Source: Actinokineospora diospyrosa
Lineage (GTDB): Bacteria; Actinomycetota; Actinomycetes; Mycobacteriales; Pseudonocardiaceae
Length of the DNA stretch: 64,000 nucleotides
Assembly (NCBI RefSeq): GCF_024171925.1
Contig: NZ_JAMTCO010000007.1
Span: 372,001-436,000 of the forward strand
Reading direction: 5' to 3'
Below the pieces are notes generated by a model, which saw only the letters and a list, made by a program, of their open reading frames with translations, was not told where the DNA came from and did not search any database. Below, in pieces: positions 14,489 to 17,693 of the stretch (position 1 is the first letter of the stretch; every line of letters begins with the position of its first letter). Both the position numbers and the translations under genes were made by a program.

Positions 14489-15592
14489 ATGGCGTTGCCC
14501 ACTTGCCTACTGGGAAGTAACGTGGAGTCGGTGCTGCTCGACGCGATCCCGACCCGGGTGCTGGCCGCCGCTGTGCGCGCCCTCTTCGCCCTGCCCCGTC
14601 CGCTCCGCCGCCTCATCGCAGGCAGGCCCATCCAGGTCGACGGCCAAGAGCTGGCCTTGGACGCCCAGTTCCTCTTGACGCTGAACCGCCTGGCCACCGG
14701 CGACGGTCTTACCGCCCGCGAGCCCGTGAAGTCCCGGGCCGACATGGTGTCCTCGACCCGCCTTATCGGAGGGACACCAATCGAGCCGGTAGCCGTAAGA
14801 GACCTAGACCTCGACGGCATCCCCGCCCGCCTCTACACGCCCCCGTCGGCGAACGACAACGCCCCGCTTCTCCTCTTCTTCCACGGCGGCGGCTGGGTCA
14901 TCGGCAACCTAGACACCCACGACAACCCTTGTCGCTTCATCGCCAAGCACGCCGAAGTAAAGGTCCTCTCCGTCGACTACCGCCTAGCGCCCGAACACCC
15001 CTACCCGGCCGCGGTGGAGGACGCCCTAGCCGCCTTCAACTACGCCGTCAAACACGCCGAGTCCCTAGGCATCGACCCGACCCGAATAGCCCTAGGCGGC
15101 GACTCCGCAGGCGGCAACCTGGCAGCCGTAACTGCCCAGCAGGCCGCTCTTACCCCAGGCCCCAAACCCGCCTTCCAACTCCTCTTCTACCCCGGCACCG
15201 ACGCGACAGTCCGCCGCCGCAGCCGCGACCTCTTCGCCACCGGCTACCTCCTAACCGACAGAGACATCGACTGGTTCCTGAACCACTACGGCCCAGACCA
15301 CTCCACCCGCGCCGACCCCCGCTTCTCCCCTCTACGCGCCCAAGACCTGACAAGCCTCCCCCCGGCCTACATAGCCACCGCAGGCTTCGACCCCCTCCGC
15401 GACGAAGGCGAGGCCTACGCAAACGCCCTCCGAGCAGCCCAAACCCCCGTGATCCTCTCCCGCCACCCCGACCTAATCCACGGCTACATCAACTTCCTCG
15501 CCGCAGGCCCCCGCTTCACCCAAGCCCTCCTGGAAGCCACCGCCACCCTCAAAGCCGCCCTCACCTTCTCGCCCAAAGATCCCCGGCGGTAA
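14489..15592 (+). CDS. HSL-family alpha/beta-hydrolase (esterase/lipase)
   Basis: Carboxylesterase of the hormone-sensitive lipase family, 367 aa. HGGG at 132-135 forms the oxyanion hole, GDSAGG carries nucleophile Ser206, DPLRDEG has Asp301 and IHGYIN has His331. An unusual N-terminal ~90 residues precede the fold. ATG at 14489 with GGTGGAGG just upstream. From the middle on, codon choice drifts to C-rich codons with CTA and CCT, unlike the neighbours, which may mark different ancestry. It ends 27 nt before the convergent S-2TM-beta gene, with no clear terminator. Confidence 0.9.
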   Translation: MALPTCLLGSNVESVLLDAIPTRVLAAAVRALFALPRPLRRLIAGRPIQVDGQELALDAQFLLTLNRLATGDGLTAREPVKSRADMVSSTRLIGGTPIEPVAVRDLDLDGIPARLYTPPSANDNAPLLLFFHGGGWVIGNLDTHDNPCRFIAKHAEVKVLSVDYRLAPEHPYPAAVEDALAAFNYAVKHAESLGIDPTRIALGGDSAGGNLAAVTAQQAALTPGPKPAFQLLFYPGTDATVRRRSRDLFATGYLLTDRDIDWFLNHYGPDHSTRADPRFSPLRAQDLTSLPPAYIATAGFDPLRDEGEAYANALRAAQTPVILSRHPDLIHGYINFLAAGPRFTQALLEATATLKAALTFSPKDPRR

Positions 15593-15619
15593 AGGCGGAG
15601 GAGGGTCTATCCGGGCTCC

Positions 15620-16261
15620 CTAGGAGAAGGTCGCCCACTTGCTCAGGGGTAGAAGGCCCTGAGCTTCTTTGATCGAGGTGCAGTGCTTTTTATCGATGTG
15701 GCGCAGGGTTATGCGCCCGCGATTCCCGTCGTTGGTCCAATACGCGCCCCTGAGTTCGTCTTTGCCGTACAGGCGTAGCTCGCCCGCGCCCTGTTGGTGG
15801 CCTGATCCGGGAGTGAACTCTCTGCGTAGCATGTAGACGTATGAGACCAGCACGGATCCGCTGTCAATTTGAGTTATTAGGTTGGCGACCTGAGACGAAC
15901 CTTCCATGCCCTGCGTGTAGCTCTGTATGGTTACGGTCAGGAGGGTTTGCCGGATCACGAAGATGATCGGAATTGTCGTCGTGCCTTCCTGATTTTGTGG
16001 CACCCAGTTCGACTCCAAGTGGCCTGTCCATGTTCCCGCGATACGCGGGCGTTCGAAGATGAGTCGAAGCAGCCGCCACTTCCAGCCCCATTTCGCGTAT
16101 GTGGCCCAGAACAGGGTGGTCGCAGTAACGGCGAGAGTGGCTCTGCGCAATGTGTGCAGGCCGATTTGCCAAGAATCGATCAACCATACCTGTAACGCCA
16201 AGGTGCCGAGTGCCACGATGGCGGTGGTAACCGCGAACCTTTTGAGGTCAGCTGCGCTCAA
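15620..16261 (-). CDS. S-2TM-beta (Cap15-like) membrane effector, 213 aa
   Basis: Two N-terminal transmembrane segments (about residues 8-28 and 40-60) are followed by a beta-rich domain starting RPRIAGTWTGHLESNW (71-86). It continues FVIRQTLLTVTIQ (101-113), EGSSQVANLI, LVSYVYMLRREFTPGSGHQQGAGEL and LRGAYWTNDGNRGRITL (170-186). This order matches the SMODS-associated 2TM beta-barrel family that includes the CBASS effector Cap15 and the 2TM-beta effector of mCpol-linked systems. There the barrel binds a cyclic dinucleotide and the helices act on the inner membrane. The start is inferred as TTG 16261, overlapping the upstream TGA by 3 nt (TTGA), so translation is coupled to the DAC-like gene. 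Confidence 0.82.
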   Translation of the reverse strand: MSAADLKRFAVTTAIVALGTLALQVWLIDSWQIGLHTLRRATLAVTATTLFWATYAKWGWKWRLLRLIFERPRIAGTWTGHLESNWVPQNQEGTTTIPIIFVIRQTLLTVTIQSYTQGMEGSSQVANLITQIDSGSVLVSYVYMLRREFTPGSGHQQGAGELRLYGKDELRGAYWTNDGNRGRITLRHIDKKHCTSIKEAQGLLPLSKWATFS

Positions 16262-16746
16262 GGCAAGCGCCTCGCAGCCCCCGGCGTTGCGGTGTCGAAT
16301 CGAATGCGGCCTTCCTTGTAAACCACGATTCGACCGCTTTGGCTGATCGCAACGGCGAGTTCGATGCTGGGGGCCAGGGATGTCAGCAGCGCTGACATGT
16401 TCCTCGCGCCGACGGCTGTCCCGGTGATGATCGAAGTGACGCCTTCGGGGATCGGAGGTGAGACGAACTGGCATATGTGTGTCAGTTCCAGGCAGTCCGC
16501 CCGAATCAGGTGGAACCCGTCATGGAACGGGCTGGATTTGTCGGCCAGCGGGGTCAGTAGCTCGGCGCTTTCGGTCGAGTCGCGCACGGAGATGGAGACA
16601 AGTTCGTTCTCGACCATTCGAACAGTGGGCAGGCGCAAGGGCGGCGAGTACAGGATCAGGCCAATCCCGGAGAACTGGTCGGTCTTCTGCTTGACGATCG
16701 CCTGCGCCAGTTCCAAGGCCCAGTCGTCAAGGTCGTCTTGGCTCAT
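16258..16746 (-). CDS. degenerate DAC-fold (diadenylate cyclase-like) protein, 162 aa
   Basis: Compact protein aligning along its length with DisA/CdaA cyclase domains. FSGIGLILYSPPLRLP (25-40) corresponds to the RIGALL strand and SPFHDGF (72-78) to TPLHDGA. GTAVGARNMSAL (109-120) corresponds to GTRHRAA, and ELAVAISQSGRIVVYKEGRI (129-148) to the LVIAISQ strand and hairpin. The metal-binding Asp of DGA is kept (Asp76) but RHR has become R115-N-M, so classic c-di-AMP synthesis is doubtful. It may make another product, bind a nucleotide, or be inactive. First gene of a two-gene operon with the S-2TM-beta effector. ATG at 16746 without a strong Shine-Dalgarno. Confidence 0.72.
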   Translation of the reverse strand: MSQDDLDDWALELAQAIVKQKTDQFSGIGLILYSPPLRLPTVRMVENELVSISVRDSTESAELLTPLADKSSPFHDGFHLIRADCLELTHICQFVSPPIPEGVTSIITGTAVGARNMSALLTSLAPSIELAVAISQSGRIVVYKEGRIRFDTATPGAARRLP

Positions 16747-16776
16747 GCTGGACCCATCTTCGCCTGTCGTGGATCA

Positions 16777-16788
16777 AGTTGTACAACT
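16777..16788. promoter_or_regulatory. 12-bp palindrome upstream of the DAC/S-2TM-beta operon
   Basis: AGTTGTACAACT, a perfect palindrome centred about 36 nt before the DAC-like start codon, where it would overlap a promoter. Possible operator; no regulator gene is in the cassette. Confidence 0.4.
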
Positions 16789-16877
16789 ATCCTGCGGCGT
16801 TTCGGAGCGTGAGAACGCCGGAGACGGGATTATTGCCTAGTCGCTGACGCGTTGGACTTGCCCTGTGCGTGTTCGGC

Positions 16878-17219
16878 TCAGCGGGTGGCCTGGCTGGTTC
16901 GCGCGATGAAGAAGGCTTGGCGGGCTAGGCGCGAGATGCCGATGAGGGTGGCGGTGCCGAATTGGATCTCTACGGTGCGCCAGCCCACGGAGCGGATGGT
17001 CAGTAGGCCGGTGAGGACGACTGCGGCCGTGACCGCGCCGAGTACGCCCACCCGGGCAAAGTAGCCGGACGTGGGTTTGTCGCCGCCATGCAGTTGCCAG
17101 TCGGACCATTCCTGGCGGGCTTTGGCCAGCTGGACCCCCGATACTGCGATCAGGCTCAGCAGTGCGGGTGCGGCGAAGCCCATCGACAGGATCAGGAGCA
17201 GTTCCCCGGTGGTGAACAC
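16878..17219 (-). CDS. small membrane protein, 113 aa
   Basis: Unrecognised. Hydrophobic segments at about residues 6-30 and 54-75, with a charged loop (KARQEWSDWQLHGGDKP) between and a basic tail. The start lies 3 nt after the yqeY stop, so it is co-transcribed with yqeY. It is followed by about 130 nt without a gene before the DAC-like gene on the same strand, so read-through into that cassette is possible but not implied. Confidence 0.65.
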   Translation of the reverse strand: MFTTGELLLILSMGFAAPALLSLIAVSGVQLAKARQEWSDWQLHGGDKPTSGYFARVGVLGAVTAAVVLTGLLTIRSVGWRTVEIQFGTATLIGISRLARQAFFIARTSQATR

Positions 17220-17222
17220 AGG

Positions 17223-17693
17223 TCAGCCGGTCAGTTTGGCCTTGACCACCGCAGCGACCCTCCCGCCGTCGGCGCGGCCTGCGATCTTGGCGTTGGCGGC
17301 CTTCATGACCTGTCCCATCTGGCGCGGGCCGGGAGCTTCACCCAGTTGGGTGGTGACCTCAGCGACGGCCTCGTCCACGAAGGCCGCGATCTCGGCGTCG
17401 TCGAGCTGCTTGGGCAGGTAGGTGTTGAGGACCTCGGCCTCGTCCAGCTCCAGCTGGGCCTGCTCGGCCCGACCGGCGCCGGAGAACGCCTCGGCGGCCT
17501 CCTTGCGCTTGCGGACCTCGCGCGCCAGCACCTTGAGGACCTCGTCGTCGGTCAGCTCGCGGGCCTCGGTGCCTGCGACCTCCTCGGTCGTGACCGCCGC
17601 CAACGCCATGCGCAGGGTCGCGAGCCGGGTCTTCTCCCGGTTCTTCATCGCGGAGGTGAGGTCTGCCTGGAGTCGGTTCTTAAGCTCGGCCAT
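17223..17693 (-). CDS. GatB/YqeY domain protein
   Basis: 156 aa, the normal length for stand-alone YqeY proteins, which share the C-terminal tRNA-binding tail domain of the amidotransferase subunit GatB. Visible features: N-terminal MAELKNRLQADLTSAMKNREKTRLATLRM, the conserved YLPKQL (residues 93-98), and the C-terminal MGQVMKAANAKIAGRADG motif. The cellular role is not well established. Divergent from the phosphoesterase gene (57 nt apart), an arrangement kept in several actinobacteria next to ponA2. Confidence 0.9.
   Translation of the reverse strand: MAELKNRLQADLTSAMKNREKTRLATLRMALAAVTTEEVAGTEARELTDDEVLKVLAREVRKRKEAAEAFSGAGRAEQAQLELDEAEVLNTYLPKQLDDAEIAAFVDEAVAEVTTQLGEAPGPRQMGQVMKAANAKIAGRADGGRVAAVVKAKLTG

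Follow-up and report, generated by a model that had tools for sequence, protein, structure and literature searches.

A two-gene locus in a genus-variable insert

The window, a stretch of 64,000 nucleotides from Actinokineospora diospyrosa, contains two adjacent genes encoding a PanS-like protein with a diadenylate cyclase (DAC) fold and a putative membrane effector (Table 1). The TTG start of the effector gene and the PanS stop overlap by 4 nt, and the two-gene arrangement noted in the first-pass annotation is confirmed. A nearby 113-aa ORF was considered as a component of the system and dropped, given that it had no homologue at the PanS loci searched. As it also lies in the genus-variable stretch, we conclude that it is probably a passenger outside the system.

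Table 1. Coordinates of the gene pair, its parts and its surroundings in the window
Feature	Coordinates	Strand
Genus-variable insert, between an alpha/beta hydrolase gene and yqeY	15562..17220	.
Effector with two TM helices and a Cap15-type beta-barrel, 213 aa, TTG start	15620..16261	-
Cap15-like nucleotide-receptor barrel of the effector, residues 70-190	15692..16054	-
Two long effector helices, residues 3-61, putative transmembrane	16079..16255	-
PanS-like DAC-fold protein, 162 aa	16258..16746	-
GARNMSA motif at the place of GTRHRAA (retains the first Arg but neither the His nor the second Arg)	16390..16410	-
HDGFH motif in the position of the DAC DGA motif (Ala changed to Phe, Asp retained)	16510..16524	-
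Small membrane-protein-like ORF, 113 aa, on the yqeY-proximal side of the pair	16878..17219	-

The host genome is 8.1 Mb in size (99.96% complete, 2.73% contaminated). Genus relatives align to the window up to about position 15561 and again from about 17221, and one of them (G007) has 362 bp between the same flanks. Another relative (G003) carries a different insert at the hydrolase-yqeY spot (L040, 1841-3236), comprising a Crp-like regulator, an 88-aa ORF and a 140-aa ORF, which suggests that this spot is an integration hot spot. No direct repeat of 14 bases with at least 13 matches was found flanking the insert (starts 15541-15640 versus 16741-17240). PanS was detected in a single genome at each level, among 16 genomes of the genus, 396 sampled from the phylum and 397 from the order (for the last two, at most nine candidates per genome scored, among the matches listed); in every case this was the A. 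diospyrosa genome itself. The first-pass annotation had read the low local GC as a hint of acquisition, and of 629 stretches of 1.1 kb in the window, the one with the pair, inside the variable insert, does have the lowest GC (rank 1). By these signs it was apparently acquired horizontally.

Identity and active site of PanS

The top PDB sequence match of the window PanS was 37jy chain A, named “Panoptoo PanS synthase” (E 8.5e-9 for the single sequence). Against a 17-row PanS profile, in which the row L025 is close to 37jy, the E-value was 1.7e-46. Residues 2-147 of 37jy are identical to a plasmid protein of Rhizobium etli Mim1, which has 26% identity to the window PanS and shares its HDGFH and GxR...A motifs. 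Downstream of the R. etli PanS gene lie a Cap15-barrel gene and, beyond it, genes annotated as CBASS phospholipase, cGAMP synthase, ThiF and Mov34. The window PanS is predicted to have a DAC fold. 37jy was absent among the Foldseek matches listed (PDB copy to April 2026), so the link between the two proteins is sequence-based, and on that basis the window PanS is a homologue of 37jy over the DAC domain. Two weak profile matches, 4yde (a farnesyltransferase construct, E 0.0044) and CT263, were taken as chance.

A full-text literature search found no publication on Panoptoo. The name occurs as a PDB molecule name only, and we therefore infer what it means. The statement in the first-pass annotation that no system of this kind was known needs revision, as 37jy is a homologue and passages of PMC13092281 report a CBASS-associated DAC that is needed for defense.

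The residues invariant in a 17-member PanS alignment are F24, G26, S71, H74-H78, P96, G112, R114, A118 and S122 (residue 1 is the second of the ORF). In DACs, the DGA, RHR and SEE motifs have functional roles. Compared with DAC structures, the Asp of DGA (in HDG) and the first Arg of RHR (in GxR) are kept in all 17 aligned PanS proteins, and the Ala of DGA is replaced by Phe. At the second Arg of RHR, all 17 have a hydrophobic or aromatic side chain instead (M, L, V, Y or F). Of SEE, the Ser is usual (14/17), unlike the two Glu. The window PanS itself has HDGF and GARNM in place of the canonical DGA and (T)RHR, with only the Asp and the first Arg in common. The presence of HDGFH in L011-L025 is by construction, because it was part of the genome scan pattern (S[DPA][FY]HDGFH); it also occurs in 7/7 members of an alignment (A1) found without a motif pattern. 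The Shewanella PanS (L007), which is outside the 17-member set, has an Arg at the second RHR position.

Since the second Arg is replaced in all 17 proteins, the altered RHR is, judging from this alignment, a family-wide trait and not the decay of a single gene. The label “degenerate” given to the protein in the first-pass annotation is thus misleading. Because RHR lacks its His and second Arg, and SEE both Glu, synthesis by the window PanS is putative, and the RHR and SEE changes would be compatible with an altered product. The protein is minimal, and no sensor domain is visible in it.

The effector and its co-divergence with PanS

The predicted fold of the effector consists of two helices and a Cap15 barrel. 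CBASS Cap15 was the best fold match, and a sequence search with the effector profile matched no other solved structure (E up to 1). Structure prediction returned both folds that the first-pass annotation had proposed, the DAC fold and the Cap15-type S-2TM-beta effector.

Pairwise distances of PanS and effector proteins are correlated (Mantel r 0.81, 0/10000 permutations, n=20 pairs). For the trees we excluded L002, with which L017 shares the same scores, and L006, a near copy of L005. The PanS tree groups the window with Rugamonas (96/96) and then with a Flavobacteriales MAG (83/92); several branches, including that of the window, are long, and so the deeper order is unsure. The effector tree also places the window, Rugamonas and the Flavobacteriales MAG together (95/97), with Rugamonas closest to the MAG (85/79), and CBASS Cap15 proteins fall between two groups of PanS partners.

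On a Mesorhizobium ciceri plasmid (L003, 5404-6846), PanS is paired with a protein in which a Cap15 receptor barrel and a PNP_UDP phosphorylase domain are fused. This ORF begins close to the barrel and apparently lacks transmembrane helices; it appears to represent an effector swap beside a CBASS.

Conservation of the pair and its CBASS neighborhood

Scanning of genomes yielded 15 confirmed PanS loci from 67 pattern matches, all from Proteobacteria except for one Flavobacteriales MAG. A Cap15-type effector gene directly follows PanS at 14 of these loci (the exception is L018), although the one at L024 lies at a contig end and is missing the end of its barrel. The same arrangement was found at seven of the eight plasmid or viral loci examined. 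The expectation that the two genes would be kept together elsewhere is thus borne out.

A CD-NTase is encoded within 10 kb of PanS at 12 of the 15 genome loci (all but L011, L018 and L024), as detected by an HMM whose seeds came from just four plasmid loci, an association with CBASS that supports the first-pass reading. The neighborhood HMMs were seeded from L002-L005, L007 and L008, so that L009 and L011-L025 alone are independent of them; of these, L017 has the same scores as the seed L002, and L025 closely resembles a further seed. Three of the CD-NTases (L008, L019 and L020) were checked, and all matched PADLOC cyclase models. Searching whole genomes with the CD-NTase profile A6 gave matches in the same 12 of 15 genomes at the coordinates of the PanS loci (matched by hand), plus one weaker match away from PanS in G412. 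Nine of the 13 A6 rows come from PanS loci and its matches there are largely by construction, so the profile serves here as evidence of absence elsewhere. It replaced PF18144 (SMODS) as the CBASS marker. PF18144 misses many DncV-like enzymes and was found in 5 of the 15 PanS genomes; it revealed CD-NTase-like genes away from PanS in G415, G421 (below the cut-off) and G425.

Among plasmid loci, five of seven have a CBASS beside the pair (L002, L003, L005, L006 and L008). The HMM found no CD-NTase near L004, L007, L009, L011, L018 or L024; a partial one at L007 came to light afterwards. The plasmid sampling comprised 7 of the 14 records in one listing (one of eight for Acinetobacter) and 4 further records of the 15 in another (L054-L057). 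On the Shewanella baltica plasmid (L007, 3763-6049), a CBASS Cap15 gene and a CD-NTase gene reduced to its C-terminal half are directly upstream of the PanS-2TM pair, with IS66 genes upstream.

One viral contig locus (L009) was confirmed from 31 pattern matches in an alignment scan of IMG/VR, and a single-protein scan of the viral contigs found no relatives. L009 (652-9011) has the PanS-2TM pair on a stretch that also encodes a tyrosine integrase and a DUF927 protein. Given the integrase, the pair may travel on integrative elements. The R. etli PanS had no match in the phage collection, and Edaphovirga DNA had none in E. coli genomes (a DNA-level search).

Two PanS-like genes without a 2TM effector, from Marinobacter (L018, 2849-9900) and Azospirillum (L004, 976-6847), occur in similar operons. 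Pfam identified a glycosyltransferase, an alpha/beta hydrolase, a class IV aminotransferase and a UDP-sugar dehydrogenase in the L018 operon, and the gene content at L004 looks the same. This points to a possible non-immune role of the PanS family.

No CBASS cyclase was found in the window, or in the host genome using A6 (DncV-like) and PF18144 (SMODS). A SAVED search of the host genome carries no weight, as no control matched. A search for canonical DACs (PF02457) was positive in 11 of 14 control genomes and negative in the host genome; it also missed the window PanS, so the absence covers canonical DACs only. The host may therefore lack c-di-AMP. The Rugamonas genome also had no CBASS match (A6), and its pair lies between genes that we take, from their sequences, to be lgt-like and EVE-domain-like.

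A probable guard mechanism and its alternatives

Panoptes is described in passages of two reports as a system in which OptS (mCpol) constitutively makes a cyclic dinucleotide that restrains the toxic S-2TM-beta effector OptE, phage anti-CBASS proteins release the effector, and CBASS is often adjacent (PMC12657218, PMC12657230). By analogy, we consider it probable (about 0.68) that the A. diospyrosa pair is a Panoptoo-type guard, in which a decoy nucleotide restrains the effector. PanS would make a cyclic nucleotide constitutively, and the effector would stay inactive with this nucleotide bound in its Cap15-like barrel. Phage factors that destroy or soak up cyclic nucleotides to disarm CBASS-like immunity would also deplete the decoy ligand. 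Upon its loss the effector would assemble and rupture the inner membrane, so that the infection ends. It is from the analogy that we infer the product, its constitutive synthesis, its inhibitory effect and the damage to the membrane; the sign of regulation is not readable from sequence. The predicted folds, the pairing, the co-divergence, the CBASS linkage elsewhere and the signs of horizontal acquisition support a guard. On the other side, the host has no CBASS by two profiles, so the usual neighbor is absent, and CBASS Cap15 proteins are intermixed with PanS partners in the effector tree. The PanS loci elsewhere at which the HMM found no CD-NTase, and the altered RHR and SEE residues, also count against it.

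The missing CBASS and the effector tree would both suit positive signaling as in CBASS, with PanS silent until infection and its nucleotide then activating the effector, as CD-NTases do with Cap15. That CBASS Cap15 is the sole solved sequence match and the best fold match of the effector also favors this alternative, which we regard as rather unlikely because a CD-NTase accompanies PanS at most genome loci, as is often the case for Panoptes, the PDB name echoes Panoptes, and PanS has no visible sensor domain.

A catalytically dead PanS, acting as a nucleotide-holding sensor or as an antitoxin that binds the effector directly to hold it in check, is more doubtful still. Consistent with it, the family as a whole has lost both Glu of SEE and the second RHR Arg, and the gene overlap and co-divergence would fit a physical complex. 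However, the Asp and the first Arg are invariant (the Asp also in the pattern-free set A1), the PDB name of 37jy calls it a synthase, and the Cap15 barrel is a nucleotide receptor. A signaling or metabolic pair outside immunity, like the PanS-like genes in the biosynthetic-looking operons of L004 and L018, is very improbable, as those genes lack the effector that the window pair has, and the latter is in a variable, low-GC insert.

The idea of an immune module that combines a DAC with an S-2TM-beta effector, raised in the first-pass annotation, is well supported, and the pair is probably an anti-phage alarm of the Panoptoo kind. If it is such a guard, we tentatively suggest that a CBASS-free Panoptoo branch (the window and Rugamonas) could be a self-contained trap. 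In this host, where no canonical DAC was detected, PanS would then make the only cyclic nucleotide of this type in the cell, a product other than 3',3'-c-di-AMP given the changed RHR/SEE site, and its removal by a phage enzyme or sponge of any kind would spring the effector, whatever other immunity the cell has. A DAC-based guard without a detected CBASS makes it possible to ask whether guards of this type shield only CBASS or respond whenever a phage attacks cyclic nucleotides, and which product a DAC makes when its phosphate-binding motif is rewritten.

Comparison with known systems

The window PanS has the fold and the HDG motif in common with DisA, CdaA and CdaM, whereas it differs from those enzymes at the Ala of DGA, at both Glu of SEE and at the second RHR Arg. 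The effector resembles that of CBASS with Cap15 in its barrel and two helices, but the partner in CBASS is a CD-NTase encoded in the operon, and none was detected with the window pair.

Passages of PMC13092281 (Science 2026) describe DS-2, found with DefensePredictor and composed of a phospholipase, a cGAS and a DAC. Mutation of two predicted catalytic residues of the DAC abolished defense, DAC homologues were next to CBASS in 15 of 30 cases, and an earlier bioinformatic note of the DAC-CBASS association is credited to a 2023 paper (PMC13092281). DS-2, set beside PanS here by description only, likewise ties a DAC to CBASS; it differs as a three-gene form for which those passages name no 2TM gene.

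Panoptoo, for which 37jy and its locus stand here, is like the window pair in having a homologous DAC-domain PanS with HDGFH and GxR...A and a Cap15-type 2TM gene directly downstream. The R. etli locus also has an adjacent CBASS, a feature that is common but perhaps not defining, and none was detected with the window pair; the window PanS belongs to its own branch with Rugamonas and the Flavobacteriales MAG, apart from 37jy. Panoptes, as described in the passages cited above, also consists of two genes, a synthase and an S-2TM-beta effector, and is CBASS-associated, but its synthase is a Cas10-like polymerase (mCpol), where the window pair has a DAC fold in the synthase position. The shared effector family, the two-gene layout and the CBASS association argue for Panoptes logic with a DAC-fold synthase. 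The window copy is unusual in that its host is an actinobacterium and apparently lacks the usual partner defense system. Our results suggest that Panoptes logic has a second, DAC-based synthase that has now reached an actinobacterium, and that it is possible without a detectable CBASS.
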